A stretch of 48,910 bases of DNA, from positions 1-48,910 of the forward strand of contig CAMWRW010000008.1 of the NCBI GenBank assembly GCA_947176755.1, read 5' to 3'. Below are positions 1-35,452 of the stretch, one piece after another. Position 1 is the first letter of the stretch. Each line of letters begins with the position of its first letter. Both the position numbers and the translations under genes were made by a program. The DNA is from an uncultured Porphyromonadaceae bacterium (lineage in GTDB: Bacteria > Bacteroidota > Bacteroidia > Bacteroidales > Muribaculaceae). Under the pieces are notes generated by a model, which ran no database searches, was not told the origin of the DNA, and saw only the letters and a list, made by a program, of their open reading frames with translations.

Positions 1-55
1 ACCTGCAACCTTCTGATCCGTAGTCAGATGCTCTATTCAGTTGAGCTAACGAACC
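1..55 (-). tRNA. tRNA-Arg (anticodon ACG), 3' part cut by window edge
   Basis: Read on the minus strand, the sequence gives a 5' acceptor strand (GGTTCGT), TA at positions 8-9, a D arm GCTC/GAGC, and an anticodon arm TCTGA/TCAGA around the loop CTACGGA, so the anticodon is ACG (plus-strand bases 19-21). The T arm starts with GCAGGT and is cut by the window start. ACG decodes CGN arginine codons, normally with A34 edited to inosine. The 3' acceptor strand and CCA end lie outside the window. Confidence 0.93.
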
Positions 56-1436: not shown

Positions 1437-2046
1437 CCTTGTTTTCTTCGACTTCTTTATTTATTGTGTAGATATAGTCGATCAGCTCCTGGCGTCCCTG
1501 ATTTTTCTCCGATGAGGTGATAAAAATAGGGGGGAGTTCTTCCCAACTCTTGAGAAGCTCTTTCTTATATGCCTCGACGTTCCTTTCCCCGGCAGCTTTG
1601 CTCAACTTGTCGGCTTTCGTGAAAACGATCGCGAACGGCACTTCATGTTCCCCAAGCCACGAGAGAAATTCCATGTCTATTTTCTGCGGCTCATGCCGAA
1701 TGTCAAGTAGAACAAACAGAAGTGTAAGCTGTCGGCGGTTGAGTATATACCCTTCGATCATCTTTCTCAACTGCTCGCGCATTTCTTTCCCTCGCAGTGC
1801 GAAACCATAACCCGGTAAATCCACAAGATACCATCTGCCGTCGTCCATTCGGAAATGATTTATCAGAAGTGTCTTTCCCGGCGTTTGCGAGGTCTTGGCC
1901 ATCTTCTTGTTCTTTGTCAGCATGTTTATCAGTGAAGATTTGCCCACATTGCTTCGGCCGATAAAGGCATATTCCGGAACGTCCGTCTCCGGACAACCTT
2001 TTACATTTGGACTGCTTATCTCGTATTTGGCATTCTTTATATCCAT
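1420..2046 (-). CDS. engB: EngB/YihA/YsxC ribosome-biogenesis GTPase
   Basis: The 208-aa product shows the TrmE-Era-EngA-EngB GTPase motifs. These are G1 GRSNVGKSS (about residues 30-38), G2 around SQTPGKT, G3 DLPGYGFA and G4 TKADK. EngB is a cytosolic GTPase needed for assembly of the 50S ribosomal subunit. The last residues are acidic and low in complexity ([11 protein letters not shown]). The gene overlaps the GtrA-family gene downstream by 17 nt and follows lysC after a 92-nt gap in which I see no clear terminator. Confidence 0.95.
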
Positions 2047-2138
2047 AATTCTTTCCGCTCTTTATTACGGTCTCCTAATGTGAATAACAGAGCACAACGC
2101 ATTCTTTCTTTTCCAATTCAACTTATTTATCAAGTTTG

Positions 2139-3506
2139 TCAAGAAAAACATGCGCCGTGGACCAGTTGGAGACCACGTTCAACATTACTGTTGTCGACAA
2201 CAAGAGCTATCGTCGTTTCTGACGCCCCGTCGGAAATTGCCTTTACATCTATTCCGTGGCGTTGAAGGGTGTGGACGAGGCGGTCGCCGAGTCCGTGATG
2301 CTTTTTGATTGCTTCTCCGACCACGGCTATGATTGCTAAATCCGCGGTCGATTGGATGCTGCGGACTTCTCCATTTTGGAGCTCCGGGGCAAATTCCTCC
2401 TCAAGAACCTTCAATGCCCTGGCGGACTCCGCTGAGGTCATTGCAACAGAAAAACTTACGTCACTCCCGGGTTGTGCCACAAGATAGACACTTATTCCGT
2501 TGCGCGCCATGGCATTATACGTCCGTGAATTGATTGCGGCCACGTTCACTGTCAAATCTCCCTCAACGGTAATCATGGCTGTGTTTCTCACTGACGACAC
2601 TCCGCATATTCCTCCCTCAGGCTCTTTCTTGGATTCCTTGATGAGTGTACCGGGAGCACTCGGATTATGGGTGTTGAGTATTTTTATAGGAATGTTTTTA
2701 TGGAATACGGGATATATCGTCGGTGGATATATGACTTTAGCTCCGAATGAGCATAGCTCCATACTTTCAATGAACGACATCCTCGGGATCACGCGTGCCT
2801 CCGGGATGATCCTCGGATCAGCTGTCATAAATCCGTTGACATCCGTCCATATCTGCAGTTCCTCCGCATCAAGGGCAGCGGCTATAAGAGCCGCTGTATA
2901 GTCGCTTCCTCCGCGTCCGAGATTCGTGATTTCTCCGCTATCTCGATCGCGTGAGATAAATCCTCCGGCAACTCCCGTTGCGCCTTGCAGTTCGCTGAAA
3001 GTGTCGCGGATAAGTTGTTCGGTAAGACCCCTGTCGGCTATATTCCGGTTAAACCATTTCTCTGTCTTTATGTAGTCAAGAGAGTCGAAATGCTTCGCAT
3101 CCTTAATGATTGCAGCGACAATCACCGACGACATCCGTTCTCCAAAACTTACAATTTGGTTCATGGACCTCTCCGGCAGATCGCGTATCAGAGATAGGCC
3201 TCGGTAGACATCCTCAAGTTGGGAGATGAATTCATCAGTGGTTTTCCTTACATAATCCTTCGCTTCCTCTGCTACGAGCGCATCGATTATATCATGATGG
3301 CGTATTGCCATCTCCTTTACGTCCTGTTCAAACCCGGCGTCTCCTTCGGAGGCCTTTTTTGCTGTCGCAATAAGTCTGTCGGTGAGTCCTCCGAGGGCAG
3401 ATACGATTACTATCTTCTCTCCTTCAAGACTTTCGACAATGCTTTTCACATTGCGCAGACTTTCGATGGTGCCAACTGAAGTGCCGCCGAACTTTAGTAC
3501 TTTCAT
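2139..3506 (-). CDS. lysC: Aspartate kinase, monofunctional
   Basis: The 455-aa product phosphorylates aspartate, the first step toward lysine, threonine, methionine and diaminopimelate. The N-terminal KFGGTSVG motif (residues 5-12) and the central GRGGSDYTAALIAAAL segment mark the amino-acid kinase domain. The C-terminal third carries two ACT-like regulatory domains, with MITVEGDL near residue 315 and LAIIAVVGEAI near residue 390. No homoserine dehydrogenase domain follows, so this is not ThrA. The start lies 8 nt after the stop of the glycosyltransferase gene, so the two are probably co-transcribed. Confidence 0.93.
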   Translation of the reverse strand: MKVLKFGGTSVGTIESLRNVKSIVESLEGEKIVIVSALGGLTDRLIATAKKASEGDAGFEQDVKEMAIRHHDIIDALVAEEAKDYVRKTTDEFISQLEDVYRGLSLIRDLPERSMNQIVSFGERMSSVIVAAIIKDAKHFDSLDYIKTEKWFNRNIADRGLTEQLIRDTFSELQGATGVAGGFISRDRDSGEITNLGRGGSDYTAALIAAALDAEELQIWTDVNGFMTADPRIIPEARVIPRMSFIESMELCSFGAKVIYPPTIYPVFHKNIPIKILNTHNPSAPGTLIKESKKEPEGGICGVSSVRNTAMITVEGDLTVNVAAINSRTYNAMARNGISVYLVAQPGSDVSFSVAMTSAESARALKVLEEEFAPELQNGEVRSIQSTADLAIIAVVGEAIKKHHGLGDRLVHTLQRHGIDVKAISDGASETTIALVVDNSNVERGLQLVHGACFS

Positions 3507-9214: not shown

Positions 9215-10317
9215 TTCGTATTGAAGGCTATCGCCGTCGGACCGCTGCCAACATTGAATTTCTGAAGCCATCTGTCATTTTCTCCATCATATCTCACAAC
9301 ATATCCCGGAGCATCGAAACTCGGATATTGCCCGTCGCGAACAAGCGAACTGATAAGGATATCATTCGTGACAGGATCTATAGCGAGGCCCTGAGCATAT
9401 TCGGGCTGTTGAATTGTCCAATCCGTGGTCTTTCCGCTTTTGATGTCATATTTTTTATATGATGCTTCTCCTGATCCGTAGAATGGATCGTCAACCATGT
9501 AGATGGTCTTTTCGGATGCAGTCATGATTGTTGCGTTGGCGATATAGCTGGATTCTCCATTTCCGGTAATTTCATAAATCGCTGACGGGACATATTCCGG
9601 CGAATCCATTGCTGCATAATTTCCCCGACAGAGAATGAAAAGATGATCGCCCGCTGCATAGAAAGAGTCCGGATTTAGTGGACACTTGTAAGTGCCTTCA
9701 AGTGTGAATGTTGATTCGTTAATGACGCTGTAAGTGTCTCCCAATACAGGATAGCTCATGCCGTCAGTGTTCGGAACATATATCTTCCCTTGGAAGAGGG
9801 CAATTTTATCCGGGTTTGGTCCGACCTTAACCGATTTTGTAATTGTTTGGGTTAATGTGTCGAGACATGCAACATAGCCGTCATACATTGAGATATACAC
9901 TTTCCCTTCATGTGTCACCATTGACCGCGGCTGGGTTCCTTCTATTCCATTGTCTCCCGGCTTCAGTTGTTTGATTGAACGGAATGTAGAGCGATCAACT
10001 ATCTCTATCGTGTTCGAAGCGTATGTGCCTATATAGAGTTTGCTGCCGTAGGAGACAATACACTGTGGCGTATCTCCCAGACTGCGGGAATTAACTTTCT
10101 CGAAGATTCCCACTTCTGATTGTCCCGTCTCATAGTCTATTGCTGTTAACGATCCGGGGATGTGGTTGTAGTAATTGCCTTGACACAGTACGAAGGCTCC
10201 TGATGATGTTGTCGGAAAATCAGGGGATAAACCGTTATTGTCATCTTTCTCGCATGCTGTCATGGCACCGGTCAGAAGCATACCGAGGCAGATGGTCTTT
10301 ACATACTCTTTTTTCAT
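9211..10317 (-). CDS. btuG: Surface lipoprotein beta-propeller, BtuG-like B12-binding protein
   Basis: The product is 368 aa from the ATG at 10317. The lipobox LTGAMTAC places the lipidated Cys at residue 22, followed by EKDD. This fits the Bacteroidetes lipoprotein export signal for surface display. The body consists of repeated YncE/DUF5074-like propeller blades (IDYETGQSEVGIF, IVDRSTFRSIKQL, CLDTLTQTITKSV). In Bacteroides, BtuG proteins sit on top of the TonB-dependent transporter BtuB and bind B12 with extremely high affinity. The btuB-btuG-btuF-btuC order and the riboswitch upstream make this the best reading. It overlaps btuF by 4 nt. Confidence 0.85.
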   Translation of the reverse strand: MKKEYVKTICLGMLLTGAMTACEKDDNNGLSPDFPTTSSGAFVLCQGNYYNHIPGSLTAIDYETGQSEVGIFEKVNSRSLGDTPQCIVSYGSKLYIGTYASNTIEIVDRSTFRSIKQLKPGDNGIEGTQPRSMVTHEGKVYISMYDGYVACLDTLTQTITKSVKVGPNPDKIALFQGKIYVPNTDGMSYPVLGDTYSVINESTFTLEGTYKCPLNPDSFYAAGDHLFILCRGNYAAMDSPEYVPSAIYEITGNGESSYIANATIMTASEKTIYMVDDPFYGSGEASYKKYDIKSGKTTDWTIQQPEYAQGLAIDPVTNDILISSLVRDGQYPSFDAPGYVVRYDGENDRWLQKFNVGSGPTAIAFNTK

Positions 10318-10407
10318 GATTCTTTTTTTGTTTAAGATATTGGTTTTCAGTTGTTTTCTGTCAAACTCAAGTTCTCCTTGAAAACGCCGTGATTGTAATA
10401 ACCGCAA

Positions 10408-12426
10408 TCAGAATTGATACTTGATCGAGACCAGCCAGTTGCGGCCGGGCATGGGGTATCGTGCAATCAATTCATATTGCCGATTGAAGGCGTTTTGAAG
10501 ATCTGCGCGCAATTCAATGCTGTGTGCGCCGAACCGGATAGTTCGGTATAGAGTGAAGCCGAAATCAATGTAGCCTGCGATGCGCGACGAGGGGAGGTTT
10601 ATGGATGTCGCGTAACGACTGCCTGAACCAATTGCATGAGCCACAAAGTTTACCCACGGATTTTTCCACGTCAGGCTAACCGACCCGGTGTGCTCCGGGG
10701 TATAGGCCACTTGTTTGTTCCAGTCAAGTTGTTCGCGGCTTGTCCGGATACGTGCTCGTTGATAGGAGTACGCCCCGGAAAGGATTAGGCCTTGCTTTTT
10801 TGTAAAGCTTAACTCTGAATCCACACTGAAGTCAACTCCCGATGCCACCACCTTCCCTAAATTTGTCATCGTGTTGATAAACATATTGAAAGGAACGGCG
10901 ACAATCTTATTCCTAACAATATTGCAGTATCCGTCGAGGGTCGTGCTCAGTGAAAATTTTTCTATTGTCAGGCCGTAGGTAATTCCTATATTAAACATCT
11001 CAGCATCCTCCGGCTTAAGATTTACACTTCCGTAGTGGTCGAAGTATAGTTCATTAAAGGTTGGCATCCTGTAGATATTCTTGTAGGATGCGCGAATGAG
11101 GAATTCCTTTTCTTTAAAGGGGATGATGGAGATGGTGATTGAGGGCGAGAAGCGGAATGTGCTTTTAGATTCGGAATCACTATGGCTTCCATCCCCGATC
11201 AAGGAAAACAGTGTTTTGGCTGTGACCGTGAAAATGCGATGCTTCCATCTTCCGGCGAGGAGCTGGAGAAGTGTATGTCGGTAAGGTGAATTGTTTGTTG
11301 CAAGATTGCTCTCCAAGTCCTGATAGGTGTAGTCGATAGAGTAGTCAAAACTCCAATCCCGAAGCGGAGCCCAGAATAGTGCGCCCGATCCATAAGCCTC
11401 TTTTTGAATGTAGTTTTGATTCAGTTCGCCACCCGGATATTTACCGTTTTTATCACTGTAATTCGTCCGACTCCAATTAAACTTTCCCAATGTTTGCAGG
11501 GAGAAAGAGTGAGGGAGTCGAGTCTTGAATGCTACTTGTCCGTATGCGTTTTGTTCTTTGAGGCGTTCGTTATTCTCTTCGACATAATAGACAACCGGCC
11601 CCGGAAGATGTTGATTACTCCCATAATAATAACCTTTGACTATAATGGAATTCCAGGGTCTTGGACGCCACCCCCCGTTAATCTCGCCATGACCTCTGTC
11701 AATACGGGCGTTTTGTCGCCTGAGGGTTGTAGTGTAGTCTCCGTTTTTCAGCTCAAAGGGAAAGTTGTTGTTGGAATGAGTATATTCTCCGGAGGCGGAA
11801 AAGGCGAGGTTCTCTCCATTGCTTTTTGATATCCGAAGATATGGACTGATGTGGCCAAAGGATCCCCCTTCAAGTCTTACAGTGGCTCTTGGACGCGAAT
11901 CAAGCATATCCGGCAAAATCCCTGTCGAGATATTTAGAGTGCCTGCAGAAGCTGCCCCCCTTGCCGGAATTAGAAGTTCATCCCGATCCCCGATATTAAC
12001 GGTCATTCCGGAGACATTTTCGAGAGAATATCTCGACAGGTCAATAGCTCCGTTGCGTATGTCGGAGAGTGGAAATCCGTCGTAGACAACTCCCGTATGC
12101 TGCACGCCGAGTCCCCTGACGGCTATAGTCTTGAGCCCGCCTGAGCCTCCGTAATCGTTAAGGTTCACGCCCGGCAATCGACGCATCGCATCGCTTATGT
12201 CGGTGATGCCTGCCGACATCACTTTATTTGCATCTATCGTTGGGGCTGGGCTGGCGCTTGACATTTTGTCTACTTTGCGCTTCGCCTTTACCTCGACTTC
12301 ATGCAAATCTGTAGCTATCGAGTCGTTTCGGTCAACACCGGCTCCATAACAAAACTGCCCGGAGACACACGTGATCCCGAGCAGCGCAGCTGAAATTCTT
12401 TTTCTTCCTTGCATTGGCTTTCTCAT
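10408..12426 (-). CDS. btuB: TonB-dependent outer-membrane receptor, BtuB-like
   Basis: The 672-aa product begins with a signal peptide (ISAALLGITCVSGQFCYGAG). A plug domain follows: HEVEVKAKR, SDAMRRLPGVNLNDYG and IAVRGLGVQHTGVVYDG. The rest is a beta barrel ending in NWLVSIKYQF with the terminal Phe needed for outer-membrane insertion. It should take cobalamin or other corrinoids across the outer membrane using TonB energy. There is no N-terminal carboxypeptidase-like (SusC-type) domain, which separates it from SusC transporters. The gene lies directly behind the cobalamin riboswitch and heads btuB-btuG-btuF-btuC. An inner ATG at 12414 would also keep the signal peptide. Confidence 0.9.
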   Translation of the reverse strand: MRKPMQGRKRISAALLGITCVSGQFCYGAGVDRNDSIATDLHEVEVKAKRKVDKMSSASPAPTIDANKVMSAGITDISDAMRRLPGVNLNDYGGSGGLKTIAVRGLGVQHTGVVYDGFPLSDIRNGAIDLSRYSLENVSGMTVNIGDRDELLIPARGAASAGTLNISTGILPDMLDSRPRATVRLEGGSFGHISPYLRISKSNGENLAFSASGEYTHSNNNFPFELKNGDYTTTLRRQNARIDRGHGEINGGWRPRPWNSIIVKGYYYGSNQHLPGPVVYYVEENNERLKEQNAYGQVAFKTRLPHSFSLQTLGKFNWSRTNYSDKNGKYPGGELNQNYIQKEAYGSGALFWAPLRDWSFDYSIDYTYQDLESNLATNNSPYRHTLLQLLAGRWKHRIFTVTAKTLFSLIGDGSHSDSESKSTFRFSPSITISIIPFKEKEFLIRASYKNIYRMPTFNELYFDHYGSVNLKPEDAEMFNIGITYGLTIEKFSLSTTLDGYCNIVRNKIVAVPFNMFINTMTNLGKVVASGVDFSVDSELSFTKKQGLILSGAYSYQRARIRTSREQLDWNKQVAYTPEHTGSVSLTWKNPWVNFVAHAIGSGSRYATSINLPSSRIAGYIDFGFTLYRTIRFGAHSIELRADLQNAFNRQYELIARYPMPGRNWLVSIKYQF

Positions 12427-12444: not shown

Positions 12445-12575
12445 TGTATTTCTCCGGAGGTCGGTCGGACTTTAACCGTAGCGGGACTGTCAGGGAATTC
12501 CACCCTATTCTTTATCCGGATAGAGGTCATCCGTCATATTGCTTTCTTTACTTAAAGATAACCCGTAGGCGGATG
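12445..12575 (-). promoter_or_regulatory. Cobalamin riboswitch in the btuB leader
   Basis: On the minus strand the leader contains the conserved aptamer core. GGGTGGAATTCCCTGACAG followed by TCCCGC (12481-12505) corresponds to the family GGTG..AATCC..AC.GTCCCGC. TACGGTTAAAGTCCGACC and GACC (12459-12480) correspond to CACTGT..AGTC.G..GACCTGCC. It lies 33 nt before the btuB ATG, so translation control is likely, as is common in Bacteroidetes. The outer limits are approximate. I set the 5' end at the probable transcription start. Confidence 0.88.
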
Positions 12576-30454: not shown

Positions 30455-31351
30455 ATGTCTGATACTGAAAAAAACACAATATCTTCCGGTGATTCAGAAG
30501 CTCCGGTAACATTTCGCCGTAAGCCGGAATGGCTTAAAGTCAGACTCCCCAGAGGGTTTAAGACCGGCCAAGTGATAAGCTTGCTCAATGAGCGTCACCT
30601 CCACACTATTTGCTCAAGCGGCATGTGTCCAAATCGTGCAGAATGTTGGGGAAACGGAACCGCAACTTTTATGATCGGAGGCAACACTTGTAGTAGGAAT
30701 TGCAAATTCTGTAATGTCACTCCCGGGCGACCCGGGCCTCTCGATCCGAAAGAAATTGATAATATCGTCGAGTCCATTAAAACTCTCGGTCTGAAACACG
30801 TCGTTATCACTTCGGTCACACGAGATGATCTCCCCGACGGCGGAGCTGCCCATTGGGCTGATACTATCCGTGCGATCAAGCGTGAGTGCCCGGGAGTTAC
30901 AATGGAGGTACTCGTGCCGGATTTTATGGGAGACACGAAGTTGTTGGATATGGTGATTGAGGCCGGTCCGGAAATTATTTCTCATAATATGGAAACAGTC
31001 GAGCGGCTCACACCTTCCGTCAGAAGTGTTGCCACTTATCGACGCTCGCTCGCTGTGCTTGAATATCTGGCATCCAGAGGAGTCCGCACGAAGTCGGGAA
31101 TTATGCTGGGACTTGGTGAAACCCGCGAGGAGATTCTCGCGACTATGGATGACCTCCGTTCAGTCGGATGTTCAATAATGACCATCGGACAGTATCTCCA
31201 ACCTTCGCGCCTGCATTACGACGTCCGCGAATATGTCCATCCCGACACTTTCGCAGAATATGCCATTATCGGCAAACAGAAAGGGTTTCGCCATATCGAG
31301 AGCGCTCCAATGGTGCGTTCCAGTTATCATGCAGAAAAACATCTTCTCTGA
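30455..31351 (+). CDS. lipA: Lipoyl synthase (complete copy)
   Basis: The 298-aa radical-SAM enzyme inserts two sulfurs into octanoyl groups on lipoyl domains. The auxiliary cluster cysteines are Cys53, Cys58 and Cys64 (CSSGMCPNRAEC). The radical-SAM cluster uses Cys79, Cys83 and Cys86 (CSRNCKFC). The C-terminal RSSYHAE provides the serine ligand of the auxiliary cluster. All required motifs are present. From base 30843 (codon 130) on, the DNA is repeated 1730 bp further right, so the 3' 57% of this gene also exists as a fragment at 32573-33081. lipB follows after 11 nt. Confidence 0.97.
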   Translation: MSDTEKNTISSGDSEAPVTFRRKPEWLKVRLPRGFKTGQVISLLNERHLHTICSSGMCPNRAECWGNGTATFMIGGNTCSRNCKFCNVTPGRPGPLDPKEIDNIVESIKTLGLKHVVITSVTRDDLPDGGAAHWADTIRAIKRECPGVTMEVLVPDFMGDTKLLDMVIEAGPEIISHNMETVERLTPSVRSVATYRRSLAVLEYLASRGVRTKSGIMLGLGETREEILATMDDLRSVGCSIMTIGQYLQPSRLHYDVREYVHPDTFAEYAIIGKQKGFRHIESAPMVRSSYHAEKHLL

Positions 31352-31362
31352 TTCTCATTTCT

Positions 31363-32046
31363 ATGTGTGATAATCTGAATATCCCGATTGAAAATTGGGG
31401 GAGAATGTCTTATGTGTCTGCCTGGAATCGGCAGAAGGAATACGTCGAGCTAGTCCGCTCGATGAAAGAGAATCAAACGTTATCTGAAGAACGGATAATA
31501 ATTGTTGAGCATGCCCCGGTCTATACGATCGGATTTCACGGGAATGCGGGCAATATGCTTGCGTCGGAGGATTATTTGAAGTCGGTCGGGGCTGAACTGA
31601 TAAGAATCGAAAGGGGAGGGGATATTACCTATCATGGACCCGGCCAGCTTGTGGTCTATCCTATTATTGATATTGCCCGGCGTGGAATCGGAGTTAAAAG
31701 TTATGTCCATATTCTTGAGCATTCAGTAATAGAATTGTTGAAGCAATATGGTATCCATGCTTCTTGCAATGACTCCGCGATAGGGGTCTGGCTGGATTGG
31801 GGAGAGGCATCGGAACGTAAGATATGTGCAATCGGAGTCAAAGTGCGTCATGGCGTGACTATGCACGGCCTTGCTTTGAATGTTAACACCGATTTGAACG
31901 CGTTCAATCTCATAAATCCTTGCGGGTTCGTTGATAAAGGTGTGACTTCTATAGCTCGAGAGCTGGGGAAGCCTGTTGATTTTGACAGTGCTTCCGCAAG
32001 TCTGGGAAAAATTATATCGCGCCGACTTAAAGAAGCGACGCGATAA
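31363..32046 (+). CDS. lipB: Octanoyltransferase, copy 1
   Basis: The 227-aa product moves octanoyl from acyl carrier protein to lipoyl domains, supplying the substrate for LipA. Motifs seen are RGGDITYHGPGQLVVYP (residues 84-100), the catalytic Lys153 in RKICAIGVKVR and the nucleophile Cys187 in NPCGF. The start chosen is the ATG at 31363, 11 nt after lipA. The frame continues upstream inside lipA without homology. An identical second copy lies at 33093-33776. This copy is transcribed with the complete lipA and is probably the main source of enzyme. Confidence 0.95.
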   Translation: MCDNLNIPIENWGRMSYVSAWNRQKEYVELVRSMKENQTLSEERIIIVEHAPVYTIGFHGNAGNMLASEDYLKSVGAELIRIERGGDITYHGPGQLVVYPIIDIARRGIGVKSYVHILEHSVIELLKQYGIHASCNDSAIGVWLDWGEASERKICAIGVKVRHGVTMHGLALNVNTDLNAFNLINPCGFVDKGVTSIARELGKPVDFDSASASLGKIISRRLKEATR

Positions 32047-32083
32047 TCCGGTAGACGCAGTCGAGAACTGATCTTTATTTCTT

Positions 32084-32572
32084 CTATTCCTCTGCTTGAT
32101 ATTCCCGCTCCAGAAACAACTTGACCTCCTGAAAGAGTTTGGACGCAAACACAAAGTCGTTTAGCGATTGGCTCTTGCTTTTGAAAATTGTTTTGTCATT
32201 CCCTTGCCAATCACAATGACCTTTATTGATGAAGACAATGTGCTCACCGATTCCCAACACAGAGTTCATGTCATGGGTGTTGATGATGGTTGTCATTCCA
32301 TACTCATGAGTGATGTCGCTTAGGAGTTCGTCAATCATGATTGACGTTTTGGGATCAAGTCCGGAGTTCGGTTCGTCGCAGAAAAGATACTTCGGATTCA
32401 GTGCAATCGCACGCGCAATCGCCACGCGCTTCTGCATACCTCCCGAAATTTCGGAAGGAAATTTATCATCAGCTCTTTCAAGTCCGACACGCTTTATGCA
32501 AAAGTGAGCTCTTTCAAGTTGCTCGGCTTGCGACATGTTAGACAGCATCTTGAGAGGAAACATAACGTTGCC
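32084..32572 (-). pseudogene. 5'-truncated mlaF copy (C-terminal fragment of ABC ATPase)
   Basis: This fragment keeps codons about 96-258 of mlaF, including the signature SGGMQKR and Walker B FCDEPNSGLDP. It lacks the start, Walker A and Q-loop because the duplication joint cuts it at 32573-32576. Beyond the joint, the upstream sequence is antisense lipA, so no mlaF promoter or start remains. It cannot encode a working ATPase. It is identical to the matching part of the complete gene at 33814-34590. Confidence 0.93.
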
Positions 32573-33081
32573 GAGCTGCCCATTGGGCTGATACTATCCG
32601 TGCGATCAAGCGTGAGTGCCCGGGAGTTACAATGGAGGTACTCGTGCCGGATTTTATGGGAGACACGAAGTTGTTGGATATGGTGATTGAGGCCGGTCCG
32701 GAAATTATTTCTCATAATATGGAAACAGTCGAGCGGCTCACACCTTCCGTCAGAAGTGTTGCCACTTATCGACGCTCGCTCGCTGTGCTTGAATATCTGG
32801 CATCCAGAGGAGTCCGCACGAAGTCGGGAATTATGCTGGGACTTGGTGAAACCCGCGAGGAGATTCTCGCGACTATGGATGACCTCCGTTCAGTCGGATG
32901 TTCAATAATGACCATCGGACAGTATCTCCAACCTTCGCGCCTGCATTACGACGTCCGCGAATATGTCCATCCCGACACTTTCGCAGAATATGCCATTATC
33001 GGCAAACAGAAAGGGTTTCGCCATATCGAGAGCGCTCCAATGGTGCGTTCCAGTTATCATGCAGAAAAACATCTTCTCTGA
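32573..33081 (+). pseudogene. 5'-truncated lipA copy (C-terminal fragment of lipoyl synthase)
   Basis: The fragment corresponds to codons about 131-298 of lipA and is identical to them. It lacks all six cluster-binding cysteines near the N-terminus and so cannot be active. An in-frame ATG at 32632 leaves a 149-codon frame, but no promoter is visible. It precedes the second lipB by the same 11-nt spacing as in copy 1. Confidence 0.93.
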
Positions 33082-33092
33082 TTCTCATTTCT

Positions 33093-33776
33093 ATGTGTGA
33101 TAATCTGAATATCCCGATTGAAAATTGGGGGAGAATGTCTTATGTGTCTGCCTGGAATCGGCAGAAGGAATACGTCGAGCTAGTCCGCTCGATGAAAGAG
33201 AATCAAACGTTATCTGAAGAACGGATAATAATTGTTGAGCATGCCCCGGTCTATACGATCGGATTTCACGGGAATGCGGGCAATATGCTTGCGTCGGAGG
33301 ATTATTTGAAGTCGGTCGGGGCTGAACTGATAAGAATCGAAAGGGGAGGGGATATTACCTATCATGGACCCGGCCAGCTTGTGGTCTATCCTATTATTGA
33401 TATTGCCCGGCGTGGAATCGGAGTTAAAAGTTATGTCCATATTCTTGAGCATTCAGTAATAGAATTGTTGAAGCAATATGGTATCCATGCTTCTTGCAAT
33501 GACTCCGCGATAGGGGTCTGGCTGGATTGGGGAGAGGCATCGGAACGTAAGATATGTGCAATCGGAGTCAAAGTGCGTCATGGCGTGACTATGCACGGCC
33601 TTGCTTTGAATGTTAACACCGATTTGAACGCGTTCAATCTCATAAATCCTTGCGGGTTCGTTGATAAAGGTGTGACTTCTATAGCTCGAGAGCTGGGGAA
33701 GCCTGTTGATTTTGACAGTGCTTCCGCAAGTCTGGGAAAAATTATATCGCGCCGACTTAAAGAAGCGACGCGATAA
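33093..33776 (+). CDS. lipB: Octanoyltransferase, copy 2 (identical to copy 1)
   Basis: The 227-aa protein is the same as that at 31363-32046, with the same catalytic Lys153 and Cys187. The coding sequence is complete, but its original promoter before lipA has not been duplicated. Expression would need read-through from the copy-1 lipA-lipB transcript across the antisense mlaF fragment, or a promoter inside the lipA fragment. It runs convergent with the complete mlaF, whose stop is 37 nt away. Confidence 0.93.
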   Translation: MCDNLNIPIENWGRMSYVSAWNRQKEYVELVRSMKENQTLSEERIIIVEHAPVYTIGFHGNAGNMLASEDYLKSVGAELIRIERGGDITYHGPGQLVVYPIIDIARRGIGVKSYVHILEHSVIELLKQYGIHASCNDSAIGVWLDWGEASERKICAIGVKVRHGVTMHGLALNVNTDLNAFNLINPCGFVDKGVTSIARELGKPVDFDSASASLGKIISRRLKEATR

Positions 33777-33813
33777 TCCGGTAGACGCAGTCGAGAACTG
33801 ATCTTTATTTCTT

Positions 33814-34590
33814 CTATTCCTCTGCTTGATATTCCCGCTCCAGAAACAACTTGACCTCCTGAAAGAGTTTGGACGCAAACACAAAGTCGTTTAGCGATTG
33901 GCTCTTGCTTTTGAAAATTGTTTTGTCATTCCCTTGCCAATCACAATGACCTTTATTGATGAAGACAATGTGCTCACCGATTCCCAACACAGAGTTCATG
34001 TCATGGGTGTTGATGATGGTTGTCATTCCATACTCATGAGTGATGTCGCTTAGGAGTTCGTCAATCATGATTGACGTTTTGGGATCAAGTCCGGAGTTCG
34101 GTTCGTCGCAGAAAAGATACTTCGGATTCAGTGCAATCGCACGCGCAATCGCCACGCGCTTCTGCATACCTCCCGAAATTTCGGAAGGAAATTTATCATC
34201 AGCTCTTTCAAGTCCGACACGCTTTATGCAAAAGTGAGCTCTTTCAAGTTGCTCGGCTTGCGACATGTTAGACAGCATCTTGAGAGGAAACATAACGTTG
34301 CCGAGCACTGTCTCATTGTCAAACAGAGCTGAGCCTTGAAACAACATTCCGATCTCGCTGCGAAGCTGACGTCGCTGTTCTGTGTCCAGATCTCGGAATT
34401 TTCGCCCGTCGTATAAAATCTCTCCCTCCTCCGGAGTCAGAAGGCCTATCAGACATTTCATGAACACTGTCTTGCCCGAGCCTGACTGTCCAATGATCAG
34501 GTTGGTTTTCCCATCTTCGAATGTGGCCGATACATCAAAGAGTATCTGTTGGCCGTCAAACCATTTGGATATGTGTTTAGCTTCGATCAT
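33814..34590 (-). CDS. mlaF: MlaF-like ABC transporter ATPase (phospholipid transport), complete copy
   Basis: The 258-aa product has Walker A GQSGSGKT (34-41), the Q-loop LFQGSALFD (residue 85), signature EISGGMQKR, Walker B YLFCDEPNSGLDP and an H-loop in NTHDMNSV. SALFD and NSGLDP match the Ttg2A/MlaF subfamily. This group drives lipid exchange between inner and outer membrane and maintains outer-membrane asymmetry. The start overlaps the mlaE stop by 4 nt. The 3' 63% of the gene lies within the 1730-bp duplication. The MlaD-like (MCE) partner is not in the window. Confidence 0.92.
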   Translation of the reverse strand: MIEAKHISKWFDGQQILFDVSATFEDGKTNLIIGQSGSGKTVFMKCLIGLLTPEEGEILYDGRKFRDLDTEQRRQLRSEIGMLFQGSALFDNETVLGNVMFPLKMLSNMSQAEQLERAHFCIKRVGLERADDKFPSEISGGMQKRVAIARAIALNPKYLFCDEPNSGLDPKTSIMIDELLSDITHEYGMTTIINTHDMNSVLGIGEHIVFINKGHCDWQGNDKTIFKSKSQSLNDFVFASKLFQEVKLFLEREYQAEE

Positions 34591-35333
34591 TGCAGTAAGA
34601 GTTTGGTTAAGATGACATCGGCAAGCAAAATAAGAATCGAGCTCGACACGACTGCCCTTGTGCTCGCCTGGCCGACTTCAAGCGCTCCTCCCTTTACATA
34701 ATAGCCGAAATATGCCGACACTGATGTTATGATAAAGGCAAAGAAGAGTGTCTTTATTATGCCATACCAGACATACCATTCCGTGAAGAAAGACTGGATG
34801 CCGTAAACATAATGATCCATCGTAATCATATCCGTGAATTCCGCCACGAGCGCACCGCCAATTAAACCCATGAACATTGATATGATGCAGAGCACGGGAA
34901 TAAAAAGCACGAATCCGATTATTTTAGGAAGTACGATGAAGTTTGCTGAATTCAGACCCATAATTTCCATCGCATCAATTTGCTCCGTGACCCTCATGGT
35001 GCCTATCTCGGATGCAACATTACTTCCAACTTTGCCTGCCAAAATAAGACACATCATTGTTGACGAAAATTCCAGAAGCATAATCTCGCGCGTTGCCAAT
35101 CCGGTTGCATAGGTCGGTATGAGCGGCGACACAATATTAATTGTCATCTGAATGCATATCACAGCGCCGATGAACAGAGATATTATGATTACCAGGGGAA
35201 TAGAGTCAACGCCAAGCTTGTTGATCTCCTTAATCAAACTTTTCAGGAATTCTTTCCATTTGTCTGGAGCCCTGAACACCTGGGCCATGAACATACAATA
35301 GCGCCCAACAGATTTTATGGAGTTAGTTATCAT
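34587..35333 (-). CDS. mlaE: MlaE-like ABC permease (phospholipid transport)
   Basis: The product is 248 aa from the ATG at 35333, with five to six membrane segments. Family segments are SIPLVIIISLFIGAVICIQ, the AGKVGSNVASEIGTMRVTEQIDAMEIMG stretch that contacts the ATPase, and GGALEVGQASTRAVV. It forms the membrane channel for MlaF. The frame is open up to 35447, but a -7 box (TAACTTTG on the minus strand, 35378-35385) and homology support the inner start. It is coupled to mlaF by a 4-nt overlap. Confidence 0.92.
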   Translation of the reverse strand: MITNSIKSVGRYCMFMAQVFRAPDKWKEFLKSLIKEINKLGVDSIPLVIIISLFIGAVICIQMTINIVSPLIPTYATGLATREIMLLEFSSTMMCLILAGKVGSNVASEIGTMRVTEQIDAMEIMGLNSANFIVLPKIIGFVLFIPVLCIISMFMGLIGGALVAEFTDMITMDHYVYGIQSFFTEWYVWYGIIKTLFFAFIITSVSAYFGYYVKGGALEVGQASTRAVVSSSILILLADVILTKLLLQ

Positions 35334-35377
35334 TACTTTTGTAGTTTTAAGGCTAGGCAATAAACCCGCTCGATTTG

Positions 35378-35385
35378 CAAAGTTA
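35378..35385 (-). promoter_or_regulatory. Candidate -7 box of mlaE-mlaF
   Basis: The minus strand reads TAACTTTG, 45 nt before the mlaE start. There is no TTTG at the matching -33 place. It is divergent from the udk promoter, whose -33 box begins 9 nt away. Confidence 0.45.
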
Positions 35386-35393
35386 ACAAAAAA

Positions 35394-35425
35394 TTTGCAG
35401 CCGTTATTAAGATTTTGTAATTTTG
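35394..35425 (+). promoter_or_regulatory. Promoter of udk-lptB
   Basis: TTTG (35394-35397), a 20-nt spacer and TAATTTTG (35418-35425) form a full consensus, with transcription expected about 20 nt before the udk ATG. Confidence 0.75.
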
Positions 35426-35452
35426 TCTTGATTAATATCAAATGCAATTATT

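Follow-up and report, generated by a model that had tools for sequence, protein, structure and literature searches.

Contig C8 of a draft assembly carries a unit of 1730 bp twice, head to tail, across lipA, lipB and mlaF. Does the chromosome itself hold this doubled state, or did it arise while the draft was being produced? The window analysed here, 48,910 bases, is the entire contig C8; the draft comprises 97 contigs and 2,270,512 bases, and was scored 99.93% complete and 1.97% contaminated. To answer the question, we considered the duplication and its genes, the corresponding loci of relatives, and the occurrence of further exact doublings in the draft and in control stretches.

An exact 1730-bp tandem duplication in the window

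Positions 30843-32576 and 32573-34306 agree base for base, giving a longest exact self-match of 1734 bases at an offset of 1730, whereas for each of the other ten offsets between 1725 and 1735 matching stops after 7-10 bases at most. The bases just outside the match differ (GGCG versus TGCC on the left, TGCC versus ACTG on the right), and the 4-bp sequence GAGC is common to both edges and to the joint, exactly as the earlier note had described. Short direct homology of this kind at edges and joint is what a spontaneous short-junction tandem duplication would show; at such periods, the probability that one random joint shares at least 4 bp is about 0.017.

Table 1. Features of the doubled locus in the window and exact doublings in the draft; positions in the last eight rows refer to the contig named.
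Feature	Position	Strand	Period (bp)	Joint overlap (bp)	Remark
Unit 1, 1730 bp	30843..32572	+			exact self-match; unit found twice in own genome
Unit 2, same as unit 1	32573..34302	+			exact self-match
Joint	32573..32576				GAGC common to the sequence ending unit 1 and the start of unit 2; self-match
Terminal GAGC	34303..34306				exact match ends here; self-match
lipA	30455..31351	+			intact, 298 aa; left edge of unit in codon 130; passes TIGR00510
lipB copy 1	31363..32046	+			intact; passes TIGR00214
Truncated mlaF copy	32084..32563	-			residues from about 96 on; GQSGSGKT motif (residue 34) lost
Headless lipA copy	32573..33081	+			residues 131-298; first ATG at 32632
lipB copy 2	33093..33776	+			intact, identical to copy 1
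mlaF-type ABC ATPase	33814..34590	-			intact, 258 aa
mlaE-type permease	34587..35447	-			outside the duplication
C8 doubling			1730	4	
C21 doubling	1464-2576		556	1	
C25 doubling			322	3	
C27 doubling	9360-11953		1296	2	
C30 doubling			241	2	
C41 doubling			752	1	
C19 doubling			335	2	
C10 doubling			639	3	

The unit spans lipA from codon 130, the whole of lipB and part of mlaF. Unit 1 had been said to cut mlaF and unit 2 to cut lipA; this is true of the extra fragments, but a full lipA and a full mlaF remain at the outer ends of the structure (Table 1), so that the net content is one intact lipA, mlaF and mlaE each, two copies of lipB and two fragments. The headless lipA copy is without the cysteine cluster beginning at residue 79, which we take to be the one with a role in radical-SAM enzymes, and the motif lost from the truncated mlaF copy is presumably its Walker A. 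A stop in the lipA frame lies just upstream of the joint, and hence there is no open fusion with lipA. For mlaF the product is an ABC ATPase; it scores 147.7 bits against the MlaF model (cut-off 441), which is not its best-scoring model; mlaE matches TIGR00056 at 182.2 bits, under the 212.2 cut-off. The name mlaF is therefore based mainly on position adjoining mlaE.

Seeded with 16 bases and set to a minimum length of 40, a repeat finder reported no further repeat in the window, direct or inverted; within it, the unit edges show neither a mobile element nor a long repeat, as had been claimed from the sequence. Megablast against phages and plasmids gave no match to the C8 duplication, and its joint pattern was absent from viral_contigs. 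Although a GCCC/GGGC stem adjoins the left edge of the unit, hairpins at the breakpoints were rejected: they fold no better than shuffles (z of -0.32, -0.71 and -0.73), and the edges show no unusual hairpin potential. Promoters and terminators created by the joint were rejected too, their counts being only at chance level. Elsewhere in the window, positions 12452-12521 (minus strand) hold an AdoCbl-II cobalamin riboswitch above its gathering score.

The locus in relatives

Matches to the unit occurred in 101 of the 111 genomes of a genus search, the own genome counted. Among the matches listed, only the own genome matched the whole 1730 bases, twice, and relatives showed diverged pieces covering lipA, lipA-lipB or mlaF; we thus reject the duplication as a conserved trait. 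The best 29 relatives' loci were then compared gene by gene, after retaining only the best of overlapping matches and discarding mlaF or lptB matches below 35% identity. Here lipA, lipB, mlaF and mlaE were each present at most once per locus: lipA-lipB stood convergent with mlaF-mlaE, once, in 16 of 29; lipB lay beside mlaF without lipA in the locus in one, and on the other strand in one; and no lip gene was detected at the locus in 11. Because 16 of 29 loci share it, the convergent single-copy arrangement lipA-lipB / mlaF-mlaE is likely to be ancestral, in keeping with the order read earlier from the window. In a LipB scan of genome contigs, the closest sequence among the best 80 of 589 relatives had 53% identity, and the nearest named LipB relatives were Bacteroidales records.

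Exact doublings in the draft and in control stretches

We searched 1,301,910 bases (57%) of the draft, comprising the window and, from other contigs, stretches of 20 kb and ends of 3 kb, for exact self-matches no shorter than their offset, a criterion that admits exact copies only. Eight exact two-copy tandem duplications were found, the window counted, all with zero mismatches, two copies each and periods of 241-1730 (Table 1); not among the eight are two arrays of short period (12 and 24 bases) and, on C3, C30 and C41, three repeats arranged otherwise than head to tail. By contrast, the controls, 80 named loci from other assemblies and 69 stretches from genus relatives, contained no exact doubling of period 100 or more in 1,517,121 bases and 149 stretches, these being on average shorter than the own-genome stretches. 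With the window excluded as the ascertained case, the comparison is 7 versus 0 (binomial P 0.0039; minimum period 40 in the own genome, 100 in controls). A relaxed search, allowing the exact run to fall up to 50 bases short of the period, found nothing further in 61 own stretches and two short partial repeats in 109 control stretches. No doubling had a period between 40 and 240, though the own-genome search reached 40; true slippage is expected to favour short units.

Identical copies and an excess in one assembly, both seen here, are what an assembly or library concatenation artefact would produce. Because the sample is one genome, the excess cannot be assigned to the genus and belongs to this assembly or lineage; a real excess of duplications in one lineage would give identical counts, one genome having been deeply sampled.

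The C21 doubling frameshifts uvrB, leaving two open frames that match profile positions 1-342 and 157-652. A whole-draft search found no intact uvrB, only these two overlapping fragments (next best 42.1 bits), whereas the same search succeeded in 14 of 14 control genomes. As evidence for an artefact the broken sole uvrB is strong, not absolute, since such a loss can also become fixed in nature. Two other doublings also frameshift a single gene: that on C25 a dxs-like gene, a full dxs being present on C35, and that on C30 a gene for which one piece gives LysM-type matches that are weak and in no case reach their cut-offs. The C27 doubling repeats most of an oxalyl-CoA decarboxylase in frame, creating a 1042-aa open frame that matches the family in two stretches. 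Such placement is blind to gene function, as expected of an artefact; yet in the remaining four doublings, on C8, C10 (a pair of adjoining open frames), C19 (the beginning of rpsL) and C41 (purD/folD), every gene seems to retain an intact copy, which counts against that explanation.

Outside the window, the joints lie at 2020 on C21, 1501 on C25, 10656 on C27, 449 on C30, 11484 on C41, 30119 on C19 and 36697 on C10. Over all eight joints the overlaps sum to 18 bp against 5.4 expected for random breakpoints with the same periods, a sum reached in 8 of 20,000 simulations, and every one of the eight joints shares at least 1 bp, an outcome seen in 25 of 20,000. As the overlaps exceed the random-breakpoint expectation, blind concatenation is unlikely to be the origin of the joints. 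Template switching in the library, software that joins ends with only a few bases in common, and real microhomology-mediated events would each account for them, and an artefact would require one of the first two.

In four of the eight doublings, an edge lies no more than 1.5 kb from a contig end, where 6-8% would be expected (P 0.0014, the same by position and by whole interval, with the 1.5-kb threshold picked after the data were seen). Contig ends in this draft also overlap one another, exactly over 40 bases once and over 55 bases twice, and imperfectly in several cases. The imperfect overlaps, with mismatches or small gaps, join the C3 end and C15 start, the C33 and C32 starts, the C4 end and C30 start, and the C5 end and C6 start; neighbouring contig ends that overlap imperfectly are a sign of a rough draft. 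C8 begins inside a tRNA gene (window positions 1-55), and its first 40 bases are an exact reverse-complement overlap with the start of C21, so the two are probably neighbouring contigs. The start of C18 is a C/G-rich low-complexity run that resembles sequencing noise.

Origin of the doubled state

Exact doublings are thus present in this draft and unseen in the control stretches, and one of them breaks uvrB. Seven more exact doublings, together with the broken sole uvrB, make the doubling on C8 most likely an error and not biology, and we put the probability that it is a sequencing or assembly artefact, absent from the chromosome as written, at roughly three in four (0.76). The living genome would then probably have lipA-lipB and mlaF-mlaE once, convergent, like many relatives, and the additional 1730 bases would belong to a class of perfect two-copy concatenations, at least eight in number, that arose during production of the draft. 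The joints may have come from chimeric DNA molecules, or from ends joined on a few common bases; in the assembly graph, such a joint would close a loop from unit end to unit start, which the assembler would have walked once too often.

Artificial concatenation of identical sequence is described as an assembly error in metagenome assemblies (PMC7111523), where, in the excerpted text, it is termed seemingly rare, phage sequences are named and no cause is stated. The eight doublings fit this error in being exact head-to-tail copies of hundreds of bases or more that are evident to a repeat finder. They differ from the phage cases as excerpted in having two copies, in lying several to one bacterial draft, and in their 1-4 bp joints. 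Nothing closer than this report was found in the literature on single-cell or metagenome tandem misassembly. Chimeric molecules would be available in ordinary data, since 130-184 chimeric reads per Mb are given even for bulk DNA libraries in an excerpt of PMC5794965.

One particular route to an artefact, a chimera formed in vitro by phi29 whole-genome amplification of one or a few cells and carried into the assembly, appears unlikely though not negligible; it is a sub-case, contained within the probability given above for an artefact. Amplification chimeras, direct ones included, typically join nearby sites through short complementary sequence (PMC1855051, PMC4595205, in the passages drawn on), and the doublings share both traits. 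In those passages, however, 85% of chimeras are inverted, with direct ones under 10 kb making up 11 of 475 (PMC1855051), and overlaps peak at 6 nt, as measured on inverted chimeras (PMC4595205), against 1-4 bp here. No fold-back copies were seen in the 61 own-genome stretches, where inverted exact matches of 40 bases or more within a stretch were limited to a single self-complementary 40-base site; this lack of predominantly inverted joints weighs little, since assemblers may drop them. One amplified cell usually yields 40-55% completeness in the excerpted PMC5794965, against 99.93% here, which a co-assembly of several cells could reach. In a stretch of another genome (L177, contig C1 of genome G005), positions 12122-12383 near a contig end form a perfect 262-base self-complementary stretch, possibly a fold-back artefact.

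That the chromosome truly carries a very recent short-junction tandem duplication we consider improbable. A broken or slipping end would have re-paired on GAGC and recopied 1730 bases, doubling lipB with little harm, because a full copy of each cut gene remained. The clean anatomy of the C8 duplication, its 4-bp microhomology, the enrichment of microhomology across all eight joints, and the presence of recA and mutS with scores over their cut-offs all favour such an event. Ku had no match in the draft, a weak point against it, since 13 of 14 control genomes lack it too. A direct repeat of 1.7 kb should be readily lost by recombination, and the other doublings and the broken uvrB weigh against the event. 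Of the two readings first offered for this locus, the assembly error is therefore the favoured one, and illegitimate recombination or slippage is disfavoured. The argument that a lack of mutations makes the event very recent is unsafe: repeat copies can be kept the same by recombination between them, and in an artefact the copies are identical from the outset.

Spontaneous duplications in Salmonella resemble the C8 structure in having direct-order joints at short homology (PMC3411829). As excerpted, that study confirmed five of eight tested duplications, with joints of 11, 13, 14, 16 and 27 bp, left those of 7, 9 and 17 bp unconfirmed, and deduced a cut-off of 11 bp; its joints were selected at 7 bp or more, so that joints below 7 bp lay outside the test and it has no direct bearing on the 4 bp at C8. 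Unlike the Salmonella cases, as far as the excerpts describe them, the doublings here are eight in one consensus sequence, with joints of 1-4 bp over all eight. That all eight are real, a recent burst of microhomology-mediated (1-4 bp) duplications of 0.2-1.7 kb spread over the chromosome in a Ku-less duplication-mutator lineage, with uvrB itself broken by one doubling and recA and mutS intact, is very improbable.

If real, the doublings would represent an unusual duplication burst at joints of minimal homology. If they are artefactual, as we favour, a completeness score of 99.93% and a contamination score of 1.97% are compatible with about one false doubling in every 160 kb of a draft. The organism would then be credited with a loss of uvrB, a second lipB and an oxalyl-CoA decarboxylase protein of 1042 aa, all three false; scanning a draft for exact tandem copies would expose such errors.
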